Below the pieces are notes generated by a model, which saw nothing but the letters and a program-made list of their open reading frames with translations, did not search any database and was not told the origin of the DNA. From a virus: 25,765 nucleotides of DNA. Every line of letters starts with the position of its first letter. Positions within the stretch are counted from its first letter, which is position 1. Below are positions 4,419 to 24,275 of the stretch, in pieces. Position numbers and translations under genes: made by a program. The stretch is taken from positions 1-25,765 of IMG/VR virus record IMGVR_UViG_3300008267_000401; one strand, written 5' to 3'.

Positions 4419-4435
4419 ATATTTATATATAAAAT
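4419..4435 (+). promoter_or_regulatory. Putative late promoter motif
   Basis: ATATTTATATATAAAAT is a two-base-longer form of the motif ATATTTATATAAAAT seen ahead of four other genes. It ends only six bases before the ATG at 4442, and no Shine-Dalgarno site fits in that space. If it is a -10-like element, the transcript would be nearly leaderless. Confidence 0.5.
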
Positions 4436-9637: not shown

Positions 9638-12600
9638 TGTTAACACAGTATAAAAATATTGAACAAATTAATTCTGCTACTAAAGCAGTTACTGGCCAAC
9701 GAATTGATAAAACTAAAACAGAATTTTTTAGTTATGATAAAGATACTCGTGTTGTACCAGTTCCGATTCTAACAACACAAAATTCTGCTACAAAAATTGA
9801 ATTGCATGTATATTCTGGAGATTCGTGGATTACTGGAAATCATGATATTCAATTACAACAGAAAACTAAAAGCTTTGTAAATAAATTAACTAAAGCTCCA
9901 TTACGGTCTGTAAGTAATGCATTATCTATAAATTTATATAGTGAATTTTCTAAATTAAAATTAACATCTGGAAATTTTAGAATTGCTGTTAATTTCTTTA
10001 GAAATATTATAGGTAATTATAACGAACAATATTTACGAATTGATGAAATATCTCCAGATCGTACAGAAATACGTTTAAGAGCTATTGATGACGAGAATCC
10101 ATTATTTCTTCAACAATTAATAAATTACATTGAAACAGTTAAACCTGTTGATACACAATTTTATAAAACATATATTTTAAATTTTAGCAGAAATAAAACT
10201 GCAGTAATAGTTAATACGACAGTTATTGGAGAATTTGTTTATTTAAAATTATATGAACCATTATCGCAAGATATTGACGTTGATTTTAAATGTTGGATTG
10301 CAGAAGAATTACGTCCTACATATATTGATAAAGTTGCAATATTACCTGCGATACCAGAAAAACAATTTAAAAAATTGTCGAATCCGAATTGGTATGCAAA
10401 TGCAATTTATAATACTACAACTGAGACAGGATTCAAGGCTTGGACGGATCTATTAGGAACTACGACTCAAACATCACAACAAATTGTTGACTCGTATTTT
10501 TCCGGGTCATTAGCTGGTGTTAAATTGAATATTGATTATTCTGATTTTAATAATTTTGTTTTTTATAGTTCCGGAACTGAACGTTTAGAGAACTTTAAAT
10601 ATAAATTAACATTATTAGAATATTATACTTCACAAAGTTTAGTTGTATCTCAAATATCTGGAAGTGTTGCAACTACAAATGTTTCTGATTTTGAAAATTC
10701 AAAAGCAGCACTTATCGGTGGATTTGATGATTTTGAAAAATATTTGTATTATGAATCATCATCTCGTTTAACTACATATGATATTCCAAATGAAACAGCG
10801 TATGTTAAGCAATTAACGGGTAGTTATGTAACACCGGTACCCAAAACAAATTCAACAATACCATATGTGTTAGCATCAGTAAATAGTACTACATTTAATA
10901 ATTGGTATGATAATGTTTATAACTCAGCATCATTATATGATACTTTAAATTATAATGCTCTTCGTTATGCTATACCTGAATTTATTAGATTTGATTCTAC
11001 TAATTCAGATATGTTATCATTTGTTGATATGTTAGGTCAGCACTATGATATAATGTATACGTACATTAATCATATGTCTCGTATTAATAAACGAGAAGAA
11101 AATCCTAAATTAGGAATGCCAAATGAATTGTTATATTCAGTAGCAAAACAGTTTGGTTGGAATTTAACTGACGGTAATCAAGGTCAAGAATTATGGCAAT
11201 ATGTTTTAGGAACTAATGAAGCTGGCACACCGTTAACGGGTTCTAATTCTATAGGTGATCCATCAGTTTCAGGTAAAAATATGACTGCTACAATTTGGAG
11301 ACGAATTGTTAACAATTTACCGTTACTTTTAAAAAGTAAAGGTACTAAACGTAGTATTCAAGCATTGTTATCTTGTTATGGCATACCACAATCATTTGTA
11401 AGTATCAATGAATATGGCGGACCTAGATTAGAACGAGCGCCTATATATGAAAAATTAAATTTTGATTATGCATTAGATTTAATTGGTAATACTGCAGGAA
11501 CAGTAACTGTAAATTATACACAACCAATTGAATCAGTAGAGTTACGTTTTCGTACAGACAATGTAATAAAAAATCCAGCAATGCCGTCTACAATGAATCT
11601 ATATACAATAGGTTCGAATACAGTAACTATAGACTTTAGTTCGGGCACAAAAGGAGTTGTACAAATCAATGGAACTAGTTCTGGTGACTTTGAGATATTT
11701 AACGGAGATTGGATTAATACTGTATTAAGAACAAATGGAACAAATTTAGATCTAATTGCAAAAAAATCTAAATATGGAAAAATTATTACAACGGTGTCTG
11801 CATCAGCAACTGCATCATTTACTAGCACAGGAACATTGACATTAGGAGGAACTAGCACAGGCGCTAGCCGATTATTAGGCCAAGTTCAAGAATTGAGATT
11901 GTGGTCTTCTAGTTTACAAAATTCTCCATTTGAAAATCATACCAAAGCTCCAGCTGCATATGATGGAAACGTAGATGCATATGACGAGTTAGTATTTAGA
12001 TTACCATTAACACAAAATATAAATCATGCAACTACTAGTAGTTTAACTGGAGTACAGCCATATTCTTCTAGCATATCTGCATCATTTACATCTTGGTCAT
12101 CAAACACTCCATATGATTCAATTGAAGAGACATATTATTATGATGCTATATCATTAGGTGCGGGTACTTTAGATGATAATAAAATTCGTTTAGAAGAAAA
12201 TGAATTGATTGGAACATTGGATGTTGCAACCAGAGCAGAACGAAGTCAATTTGATAAAGCACCATTAGACAGTAAAAAAATAGGAGTATATTTTTCTCCG
12301 CAAACAATGATTAATGAAGATATCATTGCACAACTAGGTTTTACTGAATTAGATCAATATATTGGAGATCCTGGACAAATAAATTCAAAATCATATCCAG
12401 ATTTGATTCAGACAGCTCAATCATATTGGAAAAAATATGAATCTAGTAATGATATAAATTCATATATTTCTATTTTTACATTGTACGATTTGTCATTTTT
12501 TAGGCAGATTGAACAACTATTACCTGCAAGAACTGATAAATTAACTGGTTTATTGATACAACCAAATATATTAGAACGTAGCAAAGATACAATTCTTCCA

Positions 12601-13227
12601 AAAATAAAACGATTTGAAACATTATATAGTGCATCTATAGATGAAACAAAAATACAGTCAGTTGGAACTTATTTATTATTCAATGGATCGATATCAGATG
12701 ATATTTTAACTATACAAGGTTCTGATGATGATCAGTGGAAAATGTATTTAACAGCATCTACATCTGACAAATATGATAGTACACCATATTCATATGAATA
12801 TTTATTACGCTCAGGTAGTACATGGATTACTGGATCTACTCCGTATTGGTTAAGTGATGCATTGCAACCAACATATGTAAATTCAGTAGCATCTGAATAT
12901 CGATTAATATCTAGCTCTGTTACGTATGCAACTGGATCAGCTGGGGGCGGCACTACATATGGTAGCGGCGTTTATGGAACTTCTACATATTTTAATGATC
13001 CAATGGGATCTGGCTTTAGTGGAGTATTAGCACAAGTTCAAGATTATTTACCAATTGGTATCAACCATCAAAGATATGAAGGCACGAAAATAACATCTCC
13101 GGCGTTCAATGTAAATTCAACTCAAACTATAGATGGCGGTCCAGTTGTAGAATGGAGAACAGCTAATCCAAATCAATTGATATATCAAAATCAAAATAAT
13201 AGTCAAGGTAGTTTTAGATTAGTTTGA
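9637..13227 (+). CDS. Giant baseplate wedge protein, gp7/tail-protein-I-like with LamG insert
   Basis: This 1196-residue protein fills the position of T4 gp7 (1032 aa). Residues about 449-600 resemble the tail protein I/gp7 core: FIRFDSTNSDMLSFVDMLGQ, then AKQFGWNL, and IWRRIVNNLPLLLKSKGTKR followed by SIQALLSCYGIP. The 'KGTxxxxxxLLxxYGIP' string is typical of gpI-like baseplate proteins. Residues about 610-760 form a LamG/concanavalin-like beta-sandwich that ends in LGQVQELRLWSSSLQ, a likely carbohydrate-binding insert. The C-terminal 350 residues include FTLYDLSFFRQIEQLLPA and a Gly/Ser-rich tail. A TTG in frame at 9622 was rejected in favour of the ATG at 9637, which forms a TAATG junction with the preceding gene. 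Expected partner: gp6, in a 2:1 wedge complex. Confidence 0.75.
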   Translation: MLTQYKNIEQINSATKAVTGQRIDKTKTEFFSYDKDTRVVPVPILTTQNSATKIELHVYSGDSWITGNHDIQLQQKTKSFVNKLTKAPLRSVSNALSINLYSEFSKLKLTSGNFRIAVNFFRNIIGNYNEQYLRIDEISPDRTEIRLRAIDDENPLFLQQLINYIETVKPVDTQFYKTYILNFSRNKTAVIVNTTVIGEFVYLKLYEPLSQDIDVDFKCWIAEELRPTYIDKVAILPAIPEKQFKKLSNPNWYANAIYNTTTETGFKAWTDLLGTTTQTSQQIVDSYFSGSLAGVKLNIDYSDFNNFVFYSSGTERLENFKYKLTLLEYYTSQSLVVSQISGSVATTNVSDFENSKAALIGGFDDFEKYLYYESSSRLTTYDIPNETAYVKQLTGSYVTPVPKTNSTIPYVLASVNSTTFNNWYDNVYNSASLYDTLNYNALRYAIPEFIRFDSTNSDMLSFVDMLGQHYDIMYTYINHMSRINKREENPKLGMPNELLYSVAKQFGWNLTDGNQGQELWQYVLGTNEAGTPLTGSNSIGDPSVSGKNMTATIWRRIVNNLPLLLKSKGTKRSIQALLSCYGIPQSFVSINEYGGPRLERAPIYEKLNFDYALDLIGNTAGTVTVNYTQPIESVELRFRTDNVIKNPAMPSTMNLYTIGSNTVTIDFSSGTKGVVQINGTSSGDFEIFNGDWINTVLRTNGTNLDLIAKKSKYGKIITTVSASATASFTSTGTLTLGGTSTGASRLLGQVQELRLWSSSLQNSPFENHTKAPAAYDGNVDAYDELVFRLPLTQNINHATTSSLTGVQPYSSSISASFTSWSSNTPYDSIEETYYYDAISLGAGTLDDNKIRLEENELIGTLDVATRAERSQFDKAPLDSKKIGVYFSPQTMINEDIIAQLGFTELDQYIGDPGQINSKSYPDLIQTAQSYWKKYESSNDINSYISIFTLYDLSFFRQIEQLLPARTDKLTGLLIQPNILERSKDTILPKIKRFETLYSASIDETKIQSVGTYLLFNGSISDDILTIQGSDDDQWKMYLTASTSDKYDSTPYSYEYLLRSGSTWITGSTPYWLSDALQPTYVNSVASEYRLISSSVTYATGSAGGGTTYGSGVYGTSTYFNDPMGSGFSGVLAQVQDYLPIGINHQRYEGTKITSPAFNVNSTQTIDGGPVVEWRTANPNQLIYQNQNNSQGSFRLV

Positions 13228-13247
13228 TGATAAAAATTACAAAATGT

Positions 13248-13262
13248 ATATTTATATAAAAT
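13248..13262 (+). promoter_or_regulatory. Putative late promoter motif
   Basis: An exact copy of ATATTTATATAAAAT, with the palindromic core TTTATATAAA. It lies in the 47-base gap after the giant wedge gene and ends 12 bases before the ATG at 13275. The AAGG ribosome binding site (13264-13267) directly follows the motif, so a transcript starting near 13268-13270 would not include the whole site; either initiation is earlier or the leader is very short. Confidence 0.5.
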
Positions 13263-13274
13263 TAAGGTCAAAAT

Positions 13275-13931
13275 ATGGGATATTTAGATAATACTAGTGT
13301 TACAGTTGATGCCATCTTAACATTAAAGGGGCGTGAACTTTTAGCTAAAGGCGGTAATGCGTTTAACATTACACAATTCGCAGTAGGCGATGATGAGATT
13401 GATTATTCGTTATGGAATCCAGATCATCCACTAGGAACTGATTATTATGGTACTATTATTGAGAATATGCCAATAACTGAAGCTATTCCGGATGAAACTC
13501 AAGCTCTTCGTTATAAATTAATTACGTTGCCAAAACAAACAACTAATATTCCAGTTATTAGTGTTGGTAACACATCTATAACATTGAATGCTCCGGGTGA
13601 TAGTGCTGTTATTTCTCCGAATACAAGTAATTTACAAGGCGGAAATGCAAACTTAGGATATACCGCGATTTTATCAGATTCATCAGTTGCTGATATTCAA
13701 ATTACGCAAGCATTACAAAATACAGTATTACCAACAACTCCTAGATTTATTGGTGATAATGAAGATGCACAAAGTATTGCTGTTGCTGGATTTGGTTTCC
13801 GTATCATTGCAAAAACACAATATTTATCAGATAAAACTGCAACGATTACAATTATCGGCAATGAAACTGGTGGTAGCGTTACTATTAATTTAACTGTTAA
13901 ACAAGTAACAGCAGTAACTGCAAATGTATAA
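13275..13931 (+). CDS. Virion-associated protein with conserved N-terminus and Ig-like C-terminus
   Basis: A 218-residue protein with two parts. The N-terminal about 90 residues (GYLDNTSVTVDAILTLKGRE, then NAFNITQFAVGDDEIDYSLW and HPLGTDYYGTIIENMP) look like a module I associate, from memory, with tail genes of environmental T4-like phages; its function is unknown. Residues about 95-218 are beta-rich with an Ig/BIG-like pattern (VISVGNTSITLNAPG, AVAGFGFRIIAKTQYLSDKT, ITIIGNETGGSVTINLTVKQ), as in decoration domains on phage surfaces. AAGG at 13264-13267 serves the ATG. It has its own putative promoter and is followed closely by another virion gene. Confidence 0.6.
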   Translation: MGYLDNTSVTVDAILTLKGRELLAKGGNAFNITQFAVGDDEIDYSLWNPDHPLGTDYYGTIIENMPITEAIPDETQALRYKLITLPKQTTNIPVISVGNTSITLNAPGDSAVISPNTSNLQGGNANLGYTAILSDSSVADIQITQALQNTVLPTTPRFIGDNEDAQSIAVAGFGFRIIAKTQYLSDKTATITIIGNETGGSVTINLTVKQVTAVTANV

Positions 13932-13944
13932 TATAGGTCAAAAC

Positions 13945-15255
13945 ATGCAAATGAAAAATTTCATTGAAACATTAAAACAACAACCGCGCCATGGAGGCGT
14001 TCCTAGGAATTTATTATCAGCAGTAGGTGCTGCTAATCAAGCTACTAGAACACCAATTACTCCAACTCCGGCTCCTGCTGCAGCTGGCACTGCAAATACT
14101 GCTATTATTAATGAGCAAGTACAACAATTGGCTCAGCAATTAGCAAATCAAATGGTTGCAGAAATGCAACAATCGCAAGTAATTGCAAGAAATGGTAGAA
14201 CGTTTACAAAATTTGATACGGTAAATGATGTTGTGTCAAATCAAACGGAAGTTGTAACGGCAGGTGTATGGAGTGATGGCATTGCAAGTTTAACAACATT
14301 CTTTACATCATCAATACAAACAAATGCTCAACGATCATATTATGTCGATGTGGCACAAAAGACACCAGCAGCAACTGGCTCGGCTGTTCAATTTTCATTA
14401 GCATTTGGTCATGCTTTAGGTAGTGGTTCTGATTCGCAAGGTCAACTTAATGATTCGCCATCGAAAGCAGTTTATTCTCAATACCGTCAGTTATTATTGA
14501 ATCCTAGTGATACACGTTTTACAACAGCTGGATCAGGTAGTACAGATTATGTTTATGTAGTAAACTTTAAACGCAATCGTTTAAAAGAACGTTTAGATGC
14601 GGGTAATTGGGAATTGCCATTAGTTCGAATTTCATCTAGAGCTACTAATGCAACAGGTTCGGTTGCAACAGGCTCAGGCGTAATTAAATTGATTGATGAT
14701 TCATCAGTAGCAAATCCTAGGATTGGTGATTCTGGTAAAATTTATAACATTGTTTCAGGTTCAATTTCAAGTGGTATTCATAATCCAAATGCACCAGTAT
14801 ATTATGGTTTAGCTTATCCAGATCATGGTACATTGATTTTAGATGGAAAAATGTTAGATCAACAATTAGGATTTGCAACCAATACAGGTTCTAGTTCAGA
14901 AGGAAATAATCATTTTGTATTGTTCCATTCAATCTCTGGTTCTAGTTATTTCACTGATCCACAAACAAGTGATCCATATGGTTTCCAAGCACGTAATTCT
15001 GAAAAAGTAACAAGCACGCATTATTTTGTAAGAATTAAAAATGCTGAATACAATTTCTCAAATAACCCATCTTATATAACTGGGTCAGTTGGTCAAATTG
15101 CACAATCAACATTTGTAGGCGATCCTAAAACATATATTACTACGGTAGGTTTATATAATGAACGTCAAGAATTATTAGCAGTAGCAAAACTTTCTAAACC
15201 ATTATTGAAATCATTCCAAAGAGAAGCACTTATCCGAGTTAAATTGGATTTCTAA
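13945..15255 (+). CDS. Structural protein sharing a C-terminal domain with the next gene product
   Basis: The frame also has an ATG at 13924, but the ATG at 13945 is preferred. It follows ATAGGTCAAAAC, nearly the same leader as AAGGTCAAAAT before the gene at 13275, and it avoids overlap with the upstream gene. The product is 436 residues: a short basic head, an Ala/Pro/Thr linker (TPTPAPAAAGTANT), a Gln-rich helix (EQVQQLAQQLANQM), a beta-rich body with RSYYVDVAQK and KRNRLKERLDAGNWELPLVR, and a C-terminal segment with TYITTVGLYNERQELLAVAK. That last segment clearly matches the end of the 15317 product. A virion protein of the tail or neck is likely. The family name is unknown to me. Translation is followed by a terminator. 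Confidence 0.65.
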   Translation: MQMKNFIETLKQQPRHGGVPRNLLSAVGAANQATRTPITPTPAPAAAGTANTAIINEQVQQLAQQLANQMVAEMQQSQVIARNGRTFTKFDTVNDVVSNQTEVVTAGVWSDGIASLTTFFTSSIQTNAQRSYYVDVAQKTPAATGSAVQFSLAFGHALGSGSDSQGQLNDSPSKAVYSQYRQLLLNPSDTRFTTAGSGSTDYVYVVNFKRNRLKERLDAGNWELPLVRISSRATNATGSVATGSGVIKLIDDSSVANPRIGDSGKIYNIVSGSISSGIHNPNAPVYYGLAYPDHGTLILDGKMLDQQLGFATNTGSSSEGNNHFVLFHSISGSSYFTDPQTSDPYGFQARNSEKVTSTHYFVRIKNAEYNFSNNPSYITGSVGQIAQSTFVGDPKTYITTVGLYNERQELLAVAKLSKPLLKSFQREALIRVKLDF

Positions 15256-15270
15256 ATTAATCGCAGATTT

Positions 15271-15309
15271 AAGCCCCGTTATATTTATATAAAATGTAGC
15301 GGGGTTTTT
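15271..15309 (+). terminator. Rho-independent terminator with promoter motif in its loop
   Basis: AAGCCCCGTTA (15271-15281) pairs with TAGCGGGGTTT (15297-15307). Bases 15274-15281 and 15297-15304 form an eight-base-pair stem with one G-T wobble, extendable by three weaker pairs, followed by a T run (15305-15309). It lies 16 bases after the stop of the 436-aa gene and is GC-rich against very AT-rich surroundings, which makes it stand out. The 15-base loop holds the late-promoter-like motif. Confidence 0.85.
15281..15295 (+). promoter_or_regulatory. Putative late promoter motif inside terminator loop
   Basis: An exact ATATTTATATAAAAT copy, whose first base is the last base of the terminator's left arm. 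It ends 21 bases before the ATG at 15317. A transcript starting six to eight bases after the motif would contain only part of the right arm and so would escape termination, whereas transcripts from upstream would form the full hairpin. Confidence 0.55.
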
Positions 15310-15316
15310 ACTGAAT

Positions 15317-16891
15317 ATGGCCGAAACTAGAATAAAAAATCAAGATGAATATAAAGGTGTATATCCAACTGTCTTTAAAAAGATAGATACATCAGATATT
15401 TCAATTAATCCATTTCAAGCATTTAAAACTTGGAGTGTAATATCTGGTAGTAGTACCGGTAGTGTATTGCCTTTAGTTGGTATATATTCAGATGTTAATA
15501 ATTTACCAGCATTAGGTACAAATTTAACATATAATGATGCTACAAATGTTGATGGAACATTACAAACATTAACATACTTTTCTATCAATCACTTGTTTTA
15601 TAAAAATAAAAAAGAACCATCAAAGACGTATGGTCCTACTAATTTAAACTTAACTAAAAAGCTTTTGTTTCAAAGTGCATCTATACTTTCATTCCCTCAA
15701 GTTAAAGTAGGAGAAGGAATTAAACCTAGATCATTTACTTTAACAGGTTCAGGATTATATTTTGCTAGTGATCGTAACGGAAATGTTTATGATACATCAT
15801 ATAACACTAGTTCATTTGTAACTGGTTATAAATATTATGAAGGTTTCAATGAGTATTTTGATACTACTAGAATTCAATATGAATCAGTAGGTGTTACATA
15901 TGAGCCAGGTGTTAATACTAGTAATGGTTCACAATCTGCTATAGGATATGCTGCAAAATTTTCAGGCGCCGGGTATATACGAGATTCGATATCTGGATAT
16001 TATGACCGCGATCATGATTATGCAATTTCATTTTTCATAACAAGTTCTAATGTTGGTACTAGTGATGAACTAATATTAGCAAAAGCTTCTAGTAGTTTGC
16101 AGCCATCATATCCATTTAAAGTTGAATTAAGTGGAAGCAAACAAATTGTATTTACAATAGCAGGTAGTACTGAATTTAAAGCTCAATTGACATCTTCATT
16201 AGCAGTTTCAAGTTCATGGACTCATGTAGTTTGTCAAAAATCTGGAAGTTGGATGCAAATGTATATTAATGGAACATTACATGCATCTGCGTCTAATGAT
16301 TTATTGATTAATACATTCTCGCCATTTACTGCTTCAGCTCGTATTGACAATACAAGTGATTTATATATAGGCGGTTTTAATAGCCAAAGCTCAAACGTAA
16401 ACGCATATTTAGATGAAGTTAGAATCTTTAATAAGTCACTAACAGGTGCCAACATAAGTTCTTTAAATAGCCGTACAGAAGGCGGTACATTGTTACAAAC
16501 AAATGTTGTAGGTACTGTTTTTGATAAACAAGGAATTGTTGTAATATCATCTCCAGATTATCGTTATTATAATCTTATCAATGCACCATTTTCAGCATCA
16601 TATAAAAGTACTGTAACTATTCATGAAATGAATGTTATTACTAGAATGGATTCTGGAGATTTTAATATGTCGACAAATTTAACATTGACTCGAGATGATG
16701 ATTCTACTTATTTACCATTTGTTAGTGGAAGTTCTTTTGCGCCATACATAACTACTATAGGATTATATGATGAAGCTGGACAGTTATTAGCAATTGGTAA
16801 ATTAGCACAACCAATTCGTAAAAGAAATAATGTTGATATGAATTTCATGATTCGAATTGATTTAGATAAAAATATTTCAGCCAAGGAATAA
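15317..16891 (+). CDS. Tail-associated protein with LamG-type lectin domain
   Basis: The 524-residue product has an N-terminal beta-rich part (about 1-190), a LamG/laminin-G-3-like domain (about 205-382: AIGYAAKFSGAGYIRDSISG, HDYAISFFITSS, SSWTHVVCQKSG, MYINGTLHASAS, AYLDEVRIFNKSLTG) and a C-terminal domain (about 425-524) with YITTIGLYDEAGQLLAIGKL and MIRIDLD that is related to the end of the preceding gene product. LamG domains bind sugars or polysaccharides, so a part in recognising the host surface is plausible. No Shine-Dalgarno site precedes the ATG; the start is set by the frame and by the terminator/promoter just upstream. Confidence 0.75.
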   Translation: MAETRIKNQDEYKGVYPTVFKKIDTSDISINPFQAFKTWSVISGSSTGSVLPLVGIYSDVNNLPALGTNLTYNDATNVDGTLQTLTYFSINHLFYKNKKEPSKTYGPTNLNLTKKLLFQSASILSFPQVKVGEGIKPRSFTLTGSGLYFASDRNGNVYDTSYNTSSFVTGYKYYEGFNEYFDTTRIQYESVGVTYEPGVNTSNGSQSAIGYAAKFSGAGYIRDSISGYYDRDHDYAISFFITSSNVGTSDELILAKASSSLQPSYPFKVELSGSKQIVFTIAGSTEFKAQLTSSLAVSSSWTHVVCQKSGSWMQMYINGTLHASASNDLLINTFSPFTASARIDNTSDLYIGGFNSQSSNVNAYLDEVRIFNKSLTGANISSLNSRTEGGTLLQTNVVGTVFDKQGIVVISSPDYRYYNLINAPFSASYKSTVTIHEMNVITRMDSGDFNMSTNLTLTRDDDSTYLPFVSGSSFAPYITTIGLYDEAGQLLAIGKLAQPIRKRNNVDMNFMIRIDLDKNISAKE

Positions 16892-16893
16892 CA

Positions 16894-17430
16894 ATGATAC
16901 GCTTAAAACAACTTCTTCAAGAAATGTCTGAACGAGATTTAGATCGCTGTTTAGATAAAATACGCAATAAACAATTTCGTTTGATTGGCGCTGGTGATAA
17001 TGGACGTGTATATGAAATTGATGGCGAAGATAAAACGTTTAAAATTACAAAAGAGCAAGATGAATATGAAGTTGCTGATATTATTGTGAATCGATACAAT
17101 GAATTTACTACATTTATTCCAGTATATTATGTTGATGGAAAAAATATGTATATAATGGCAAATGCATCAGAATTACCGATACGCATTAAAAAATCAATTG
17201 ATATGTTTATGCAAGACTTTGCTAACTTTGCTAGAGATGAAGGCGGAGAAGTTTCAATATTTGATTTTACTGCAGAAACTGATAGTTTAGATCCGATGTT
17301 AGATAATTTTTTAAATGCATTGCAATCGGATGTTGAAAAATTAAACATTCCAGAATTTGATTTAGATTTAGATTTTCGATCAGATAACATCATGATGTGG
17401 GATGGAAAAATGGTCATGGTTGATTGGTGA
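16894..17430 (+). CDS. Minimal protein-kinase-fold protein with capsid-targeting-like N-terminus
   Basis: The 178-residue product shows the nucleotide-binding half of a kinase: glycine loop G32-A-G34-D-N-G37-R-V39 (IGAGDNGRVYEI), a lysine at K50 (TFKITKE), helix-C glutamates E57/E59, a hinge-like YIMANASELP, the catalytic loop D160-F-R-S-D-N165 and the metal-binding Asp D177 in MVMVDW. The chain stops one residue after that Asp, so the activation loop and C-lobe helices of full-size kinases are missing. The catalytic Asp and Asn are intact; activity is not proven. The first ten residues, MIRLKQLLQE, match a T4-style capsid-targeting leader with an L-x-E protease site. AAGGA (16884-16888) precedes the ATG. 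It could instead be an antitoxin-like or inactive pseudokinase. Confidence 0.65.
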   Translation: MIRLKQLLQEMSERDLDRCLDKIRNKQFRLIGAGDNGRVYEIDGEDKTFKITKEQDEYEVADIIVNRYNEFTTFIPVYYVDGKNMYIMANASELPIRIKKSIDMFMQDFANFARDEGGEVSIFDFTAETDSLDPMLDNFLNALQSDVEKLNIPEFDLDLDFRSDNIMMWDGKMVMVDW

Positions 17431-17433
17431 TAC

Positions 17434-17448
17434 ATATTTATATAAAAT
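17434..17448 (+). promoter_or_regulatory. Putative late promoter motif
   Basis: An exact ATATTTATATAAAAT copy starting three bases after the kinase-like stop codon and ending nine bases before the ATG at 17458. The intervening TGGATTGAA has at most a weak GGA ribosome binding site that starts immediately after the motif, so a very short or absent leader is expected. Confidence 0.5.
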
Positions 17449-17457
17449 TGGATTGAA

Positions 17458-18645
17458 ATGCAAACACAATTATTAGAAAATATTATTCGTAAATTTTTAT
17501 TTGAACAAGGTGGCAAGCTAACTATGGATTTGGCTAAAGTTACTGAAAAAGACCGCAAGTTAGCTAAAGACCAAATGAGCAAAGTTTTAATGTCAACCGT
17601 TAACGTTAACGCAGTTAATGTTAAAGATTTTGGTCAAATTCGTATTGAACTAATTAGATCAGGGGGTCGAACAAAAGTTGGTGATACAAAAATATCAACA
17701 TATCGTACAAAACAAATATTAGATGATGCAACTAATTATTTAAAAAGAAGTCAAGGCCCTTTGTTTTTAACTCTTACAACGTCTGATTTTGTTTGGTTTT
17801 TAATAAGTGATTCAACAGATAATGAACAAGAAAAACTACGAGCAAAATATTCTGTTATTGCAATATATGCTAAAAAAACATTATTTGGTAAAACGCCGGC
17901 TGTAAAAATGGGTAATGGATTTATCGATGTATTACCTCGAGGCGCAGCGGTATATAATTTTGCTGATATTAAAGTTACAGATTGGAAAGGATATAACAAT
18001 CCAGCTCCGCCAGAAAAAGATATAATACAAGATAGATCATTTACTGGAATGCCTTTACAACAATTAGAATATGGTAATAGATATAGTACAGATATAGATT
18101 GGTTATATTCATATTTTGAAAATAATTTTATTAAATTAAATATTACAACTAATTTAGAATTTAAACAAGCTGTTGGTTTTGGCTGTGAATTAAAATCTAT
18201 GATAGAACAATTTCAAGAAGAACAAAATATACCAGTAACTAGTATATGGGATACTAAAACTAGAGAAACAGTTTCAAGTTTAAAAAAATTAGAATATGAA
18301 ATAAAAAATACAAACGCTTTAAAATCTAAATATAATACATGTAAAATAGAAAATTTAGATTTACAAAATATTAAATACCCAGCTGGCGGATCATTTACTC
18401 CGGAAAATACTAAAGAAAAAAATATAGAATTTATAAAAGTGCAAATATTAATGTTAAATTATGTTAATAATAACAGTAAAAATGGGCCGGCCCCGGTAAA
18501 TAAAGAATGGTATAAAGAATTACAATCAAAAACAGGTATTTATTCCGAAGATTTAATCAATGGTGTACGAGTAATACGAAGTCTTGCTGGCTTACCTAGT
18601 GATAGAATTGATATAACTTCGGAATTAATTGAAAAGATACGATAA
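17458..18645 (+). CDS. Uncharacterised protein, possible packaged head protein, 395 aa
   Basis: I do not recognise the family. The N-terminus MQTQLLENIIRKFLFEQGG contains two L-x-E sites (LLE at 5-7, LFE at 14-16), as expected for a leader cut by a prohead protease. The next part is a mixed alpha/beta domain (about 20-190) with LFLTLTTSDFVWFLISD and AKYSVIAIYAKKTLFG. Around residues 238-275, LKSMIEQFQEEQNIPVTSIW followed by DTKTRETVSSL weakly resembles a peptidoglycan-binding helical module (Q-x-x-x-x-x-x-x-x-G-x-x-D-x-x-T), but without the usual glycine. The C-terminal region is helical and ends in a similar-looking module. It joins the next gene by TAATG, so the two are coupled. Confidence 0.55.
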   Translation: MQTQLLENIIRKFLFEQGGKLTMDLAKVTEKDRKLAKDQMSKVLMSTVNVNAVNVKDFGQIRIELIRSGGRTKVGDTKISTYRTKQILDDATNYLKRSQGPLFLTLTTSDFVWFLISDSTDNEQEKLRAKYSVIAIYAKKTLFGKTPAVKMGNGFIDVLPRGAAVYNFADIKVTDWKGYNNPAPPEKDIIQDRSFTGMPLQQLEYGNRYSTDIDWLYSYFENNFIKLNITTNLEFKQAVGFGCELKSMIEQFQEEQNIPVTSIWDTKTRETVSSLKKLEYEIKNTNALKSKYNTCKIENLDLQNIKYPAGGSFTPENTKEKNIEFIKVQILMLNYVNNNSKNGPAPVNKEWYKELQSKTGIYSEDLINGVRVIRSLAGLPSDRIDITSELIEKIR

Positions 18646-19999: not shown

Positions 20000-20056
20000 T
20001 TTGTGAAATATTTTTAATATATTGTTCATGTATTGATGAAATTTATTTAATTAATA

Positions 20057-20081
20057 GATTGAAGAATTTATTGATTCAATC
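20057..20081. repeat. Inverted repeat / hairpin 1
   Basis: GATTGAA (20057-20063) and its perfect complement TTCAATC (20075-20081) are separated by an 11-base loop. The stem is seven base pairs. It directly abuts the second hairpin with no base between them. No T run follows, so it is not a typical terminator. Confidence 0.5.
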
Positions 20082-20113
20082 GTTAAGCCAGGAATGTAAT
20101 GTATGTGCTTAAC
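20082..20113. repeat. Inverted repeat / hairpin 2
   Basis: GTTAAGC (20082-20088) and its perfect complement GCTTAAC (20107-20113) enclose an 18-base loop (CAGGAATGTAATGTATGT) that is less AT-rich than its surroundings. The stem is seven base pairs. No T run follows. It could be a protein-binding palindrome, an RNA structure in the leader of the primase mRNA, or an origin element. Confidence 0.5.
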
Positions 20114-20179
20114 CAATAATATATTTAATAATATTAATATTAATTGGATTCCTTACAGAATTTTATTATTATTTAAATA

Positions 20180-24260: not shown

Positions 24261-24275
24261 ATATTTATATAAAAG
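24261..24275 (+). promoter_or_regulatory. Putative late promoter motif
   Basis: ATATTTATATAAAAG, one base different from the exact motif, starts immediately after the Rad50 stop codon and ends 15 bases before the ATG at 24291. It marks the switch from DNA-metabolism genes back to a structural gene. Confidence 0.5.

Follow-up and report, generated by a model that had tools for sequence, protein, structure and literature searches.

A promoter-like motif at the tip of a terminator-like hairpin between two virion-region genes of an uncultured lake phage

In bacteriophage T4, the late promoter TATAAATA is read by gp55 and depends on the sliding clamp and on gp33. The promoter spans positions -13 to -6, as given in the accessible part of one source (PMC1524935). 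For e, soc, 49, I-TevI and segB of T4, and for mobE of Aeh1, the accessible parts of two reports place a late promoter in or at the 5' strand of an inhibitory leader hairpin, so that only transcripts begun upstream form the hairpin. These leader hairpins sequester the Shine-Dalgarno sequence or the AUG, and in those parts of the reports they are not described as terminators (PMC3014915, PMC2988022). T4-like phages also have promoter-terminator cassettes between genes, termed PeSL, in which a promoter and a stem-loop form a composite, according to an extract of a further report (PMC4503421).

Here we describe an element from an uncultured lake phage, found in a window of 25,765 nucleotides (the whole stretch of DNA that was analysed); all its features given below lie on the plus strand. 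The upstream gene (13924-15255) encodes a virion-region protein of 443 aa with no match in Pfam or PHROG, and the downstream gene (15317-16891) a protein of 524 aa with a concanavalin-like (Laminin_G_3) domain, probably a tail or adhesin protein. The 61 nt between them read AAGCCCCGTTATATTTATATAAAATGTAGCGGGGTTTTTACTGAAT, followed by the ATG, and at 15271-15309 they hold a GC-rich hairpin with a T run that encloses a promoter-like motif, an arrangement far from chance. The left arm (15271-15286) pairs with the right arm (15292-15307) over 16 bp, across a 5-nt loop (15287-15291). The arms include CCCCGTTA (15274-15281, GC core 15274-15278) and TAGCGGGG (15297-15304, GC core 15300-15304). The T run (15305-15309), whose first bases also pair with 15271-15273, forms the putative terminator tail. 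The RNA of 15262-15316 has a predicted folding energy of -23.6 kcal/mol, whereas shuffled sequences average -7.85 (z -5.86), and none of 200 shuffles did as well.

The preliminary description had placed an exact copy of the motif in the loop of a terminator. The copy is indeed present (ATATTTATATAAAAT, 15281-15295, with the promoter core TATTTATA at 15282-15289), and sequence and fold agree on the nesting. The motif is not confined to the loop, however: the hairpin tip consists of TATATTT in the left arm paired with AAATGTA in the right, so the motif is also the upper stem, and the TATTT at the top of the left arm is the first part of the core. A generic terminator scan of the window did not have the nested site among its matches, probably because it counted the first T's as stem; in our own stricter scan, 15271-15309 was the only terminator-like site in the window. 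Both flanking genes also encode a common C-terminal stretch of about 41 aa (15133-15249 and 16745-16867; 46% identity, E 2e-8).

With the leaders of T4 e, soc and I-TevI the locus shares its geometry, a promoter inside the hairpin whose transcripts, from the predicted start, would lack the 5' arm. Unlike in those leaders, the stem ends before the AUG (10, 11 or 12 nt from the end of the right arm or GC stem in 61 of 61 distinct elements of the window and its relatives) and has a T run behind it, with the promoter as the hairpin tip. No Shine-Dalgarno sequence was seen in the helix, and the AUG lies outside it in all 61. As with a T4 late promoter, a short AT-only core stands upstream of virion genes in a phage with a sigma-like protein, but the core is TATTTATA followed by AAA. 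As in a Rho-independent terminator, a GC-rich stem and a T run follow the stop codon, and in the window the hairpin is beyond chance and TTTTT comes directly after the stem; unlike in such a terminator, the promoter forms the apical stem and loop, and T runs are short in some relatives. PeSL cassettes are said to carry early promoters, to occur in many copies and to be dense in shuffled regions. Our element, with a late-type promoter and a single copy at one fixed place, differs from these cassettes and is not a member of the group. A late promoter inside a terminator-like hairpin was found at none of 38 such sites in T4 and at none of 36 in cyanophage S-RIM8, and in open-licence full texts we recognised no report of a promoter inside a terminator loop or of TATTTATA as a phage promoter. 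The parts are familiar. What looks new is that they are fused, that the fusion is conserved and that the promoter is of this variant.

Three queries with the upstream protein, and none with the motif, were used to retrieve relatives. Read from the gene end, the element was present at 79 of 80 loci in the first set (the exception, L066, ends inside the gene), at 79 of 79 in the second, and at all 41 examined, of 80, in the third. The preliminary description had proposed to look for relatives that keep the stem and lose the loop sequence; a uniform scan instead found hairpin and motif together in 236 of 239 locus records, and the three exceptions are two contigs ending inside the gene (L066, L515) and one ending in the T run (L485). 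Contigs recur among the three queries, and the records hold 108 distinct 300-bp contexts, with 46 distinct elements for covariation. The element lies about 15-30 nt past the stop codon of the upstream gene. It is lacking at 73 of 80 loci in the more distant group around Flavobacterium phage immuto, with the next gene within a few to about 15 nt, as well as in Microcystis phage Mel-JY01 and the 484-kb record LR756508. Nested sites number at most one per genome in the window and in the relatives G001, G002 and G010. A strict scan returned one each in the window, G001 and G002 and none in immuto, T4 or S-RIM8, missing that of G010 because of its short T run. In a looser scan of the loci for hairpins around TATTTAT, many weak chance folds were among the matches listed.

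The helix is conserved as a structure. Among the 46 distinct elements, 97.1% of 552 pair cells are standard, against at most 54% paired in slid control structures. Cells with a double change number 41 (shuffled 11.3) and the covariation score is 0.374 (shuffled 0.203), neither of which was reached in 500 shuffles. Counts by pair type are not above shuffles, at 151 of 500 for pairs with a double change and 307 of 500 for further types, and an earlier set of 25 elements gave the same covariation picture. Throughout these 46 elements the core TATATTTAT is invariant and the stem varies with compensation. As a measure of divergence, the adjacent gene has a mean pairwise identity of 0.59 at 19 four-fold degenerate sites, over 76 distinct sequences; these rows were selected by the core, and listings from the gene end give the same core invariance. 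The T run is less constant. In 54 of 61 distinct elements the hairpin is followed by at least four T's and so is of terminator type; the other seven have a run of three or fewer, in some with the stem extended instead, which is weak for intrinsic termination.

Within the window, the exact 15-mer occurs three times (at 13248, 15281 and 17434; 0.01 expected, with three copies reached in 0 of 100 shuffles), always on the plus strand and upstream of a gene. The two other copies have no hairpin and lie 12 nt before ORF 13275 (13248-13262) and 9 nt before ORF 17458 (17434-17448). A copy with one mismatch precedes ORF 24291 (24261-24275), and promoter-like copies precede ORF 4442 (TATTTATATATAAAAT, 4420-4435) and ORF 2171 (TATTTATTATTAAAG, 2153-2167). 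When three mismatches are allowed the motif is in no excess in the window (21 versus 19.9), which leaves the near-exact motif as the informative form.

The preliminary description had also called the motif a promoter, and its position and direction genome-wide bear this out. In the 159.6-kb relative G001, TATTTATA lies at most 50 nt upstream of 28 of 192 predicted genes (shuffled mean 2.6), in gene direction; the corresponding figures are 22 of 198 in G010 (shuffled 3.35) and 4 of 23 in the window (0.25). In the noncoding DNA of G001, TATTTAT has 36 occurrences on the gene-rich strand against 7 on the opposite strand; most stand 5-40 nt ahead of a start codon and in gene direction, and the G001 consensus is A (0.97) TATTTAT A (0.80) and then AAA at 0.83-0.89. 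Immuto has the same motif upstream of other genes. Because it stands before many virion-region genes, TATTTATA is probably the late promoter of this clade, its timing being deduced from that position. The consensus ATATTTATAWWAAA is nearly self-complementary, and the promoter can therefore serve as a hairpin tip. The complement of the core contains TATAAATA on the minus strand, and we considered an antisense promoter of the T4 type. This was rejected since the motif points with the genes (the strand bias in G001 above) and TATAAATA shows no excess upstream of genes (0 of 192 in G001, 2 of 198 in G010 and 6 of 211 in immuto). In G001, G010 and immuto, several motifs stand only 4-6 nt before an ATG (TATTTATtaatATG), which suggests leaderless late transcripts or misplaced start codons.

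A candidate for the sigma factor is encoded by ORF 1451-2152, which is kept in immuto and others. Aligned with the T4 gp55-family profile by hhalign, it is collinear over 103 columns with a score of 30.0 (P 0.002) and a weak probability of 14%; eight column-shuffled controls scored 11.4-24.4 and a reversed one 11.9. The phrog_234 profile had no match in five records. Profile searches with the ORF returned nothing significant from PHROGs or Pfam, and only spurious LSm4 matches from the PDB by sequence. A first structure model was poor (pLDDT 51), and a second (pLDDT 79) was used. Sigma factors took ranks 1, 3 and 4 of its matches in the PDB (best E 0.26), and its named viral matches include several phage sigma factors, a gp55 among them; the sole match below 0.001 carries no name. 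Profile and model are suggestive of a late sigma far related to T4 gp55. A separate RpoD-like sigma, recognised by Pfam sigma-70 region 2, is encoded in two of four records: in G001 (L257 1135-1869, minus strand; E 5e-16), where the protein has regions 2 and 4, and in G010 (10174-10383; 9e-16). In some relatives, the copy of the motif downstream of the sigma-like ORF (e.g. L141 2182, L148 2390) is likewise part of a hairpin, a weak one (CCTTTTTGATATTTATATTAAAGG) whose AAAGG resembles a Shine-Dalgarno sequence.

We consider it likely that the element is a terminator fused with a restart promoter between two virion genes. This reading is based on the nesting, the covariation, the invariant core and the promoter-like distribution of the motif. 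Polymerase coming from the upstream virion gene would transcribe the whole inverted repeat, and the 16-bp hairpin with its U's would stop most of it. RNA that reads through would fold into a very stable hairpin, its GC stem ending 10-12 nt before the AUG, which may prevent ribosomes from binding. The same DNA would be bound at TATTTATA by polymerase carrying the late sigma of the phage, with initiation some 6 nt downstream; if the start is spaced as in T4 late promoters, it falls at about 15294-15296, and the new RNA would contain all of the right arm's GC part and nothing of the left arm. The hairpin would then be absent and the downstream gene translated. In agreement, the predicted cost of opening the AUG region averages 14.6 kcal/mol in the read-through RNA and 4.0 kcal/mol in a restart RNA beginning about 6 nt after the core, and it is higher in the former in 50 of 50 comparisons. 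As the stem holds neither the AUG nor an obvious Shine-Dalgarno sequence, the translation block has the standing of a prediction; like termination, the start site and the sigma used, it is what we infer from the DNA. Given the seven short T runs, termination alone does not account for why the element is kept, and silencing of the leader near the AUG is likely to contribute as well. The term switch, used in the preliminary description, is stronger than the evidence: the element looks like fixed punctuation dependent on the late sigma.

Alternatively, the hairpin could mainly act as a translational timer like those of T4 e, soc and I-TevI. It would silence the downstream gene on early read-through RNA, the inner late promoter would give a translatable late RNA, and the T run would be incidental. 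A late-type promoter in the 5' strand of the hairpin is exactly the arrangement described for T4 (PMC3014915, PMC2988022), and the constant distance to the AUG, the stems kept where the T run is short and the much higher opening cost of the read-through RNA all speak for a timer. The T run of at least four in most elements, the ACT conserved after it as after ordinary terminators, and the AUG outside the stem argue against it; moreover, the upstream gene itself belongs to the virion region, so early read-through is not obvious. We regard the timer as rather unlikely. Still less probable is that the hairpin mainly protects or processes the 3' end of the upstream message, with the promoter placed there by economy of space. 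Such a role fits a stem conserved whatever the length of the T run and lying shortly after the stop codon, but it requires neither a promoter at the tip nor a fixed spacing to the AUG, and the ordinary terminators of the same genomes look classic.

An inverted repeat centred near a promoter core might also flank the promoter as a DNA operator for a dimeric regulator. A protein site would keep its letters, whereas the arms vary (CCCCG, CCCTG, CCTCG, CCCCGG, GCCCG) with compensation and G-T pairs, as in RNA; mainly for this reason the operator was rejected, and with the T run on one side only we find it very improbable. Chance or shared ancestry in AT-rich DNA is the least credible account of all. 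The motif with three mismatches is no commoner than expected, which speaks for it, but the hairpin (z -5.9), the three exact motifs against 0.01, the compensatory changes and a core that stays invariant next to four-fold sites at 0.59 identity stand against it.

With a terminator and restart promoter fused, some 40 bases would be enough for the phage to close one late message and open the next. The large clade of uncultured phages to which it belongs has hardly been studied, and the results further predict a late promoter motif for this clade and propose a candidate for its late sigma; an isolate with the same motif and sigma-like gene infects Flavobacterium. We would only tentatively go further, to a distinct type of element in which the near-palindrome of the promoter is the apex of the terminator and the share of upstream transcription that gets through depends on occupancy by late sigma and polymerase. 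Such an element would be fixed in a large freshwater phage clade whose late promoter, TATTTATA, is unreported and whose sigma is gp55-like but far diverged. Simple reporter tests could tell termination, restart and leader silencing apart, since the relatives supply numerous stems that differ by compensated changes and share one fixed core.

The ordinary terminators of G001 and G010, which look classic, give a setting for the nested site. Most strong ones near promoters stand in tandem with them, the TATTTAT motif following 15-18 nt after the stem at near-constant distance. Ending and restarting is thus normal in these genomes, and the nested site merges both. Many of their terminators (e.g. 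L165-L172, L429-L436) end in TTTTTTACT plus G or T; the stems differ and the tail is the same. At the nested site, too, the T run keeps its ACT (15310-15312 in the window).

Two further regions drew our attention. Window positions 20000-20179 form a noncoding gap of 180 nt with two hairpin-like parts, of which about 100 nt are nearly identical in G001 (gene strand 54608-54790). The gap has no match in Rfam and a fold z of -1.6, and it is possibly a structured RNA or an origin; an Rfam search of the nested element likewise gave nothing near thresholds. In an early-looking region of G001 (gene strand, about 11500-17500), upstream sequences of the form TTGGAT...TATCTTTA/TAAATTTA are repeated. They are similar to the consensus promoter of Bacteroidota, which hints at a host from that group and at early promoters read by the host sigma.
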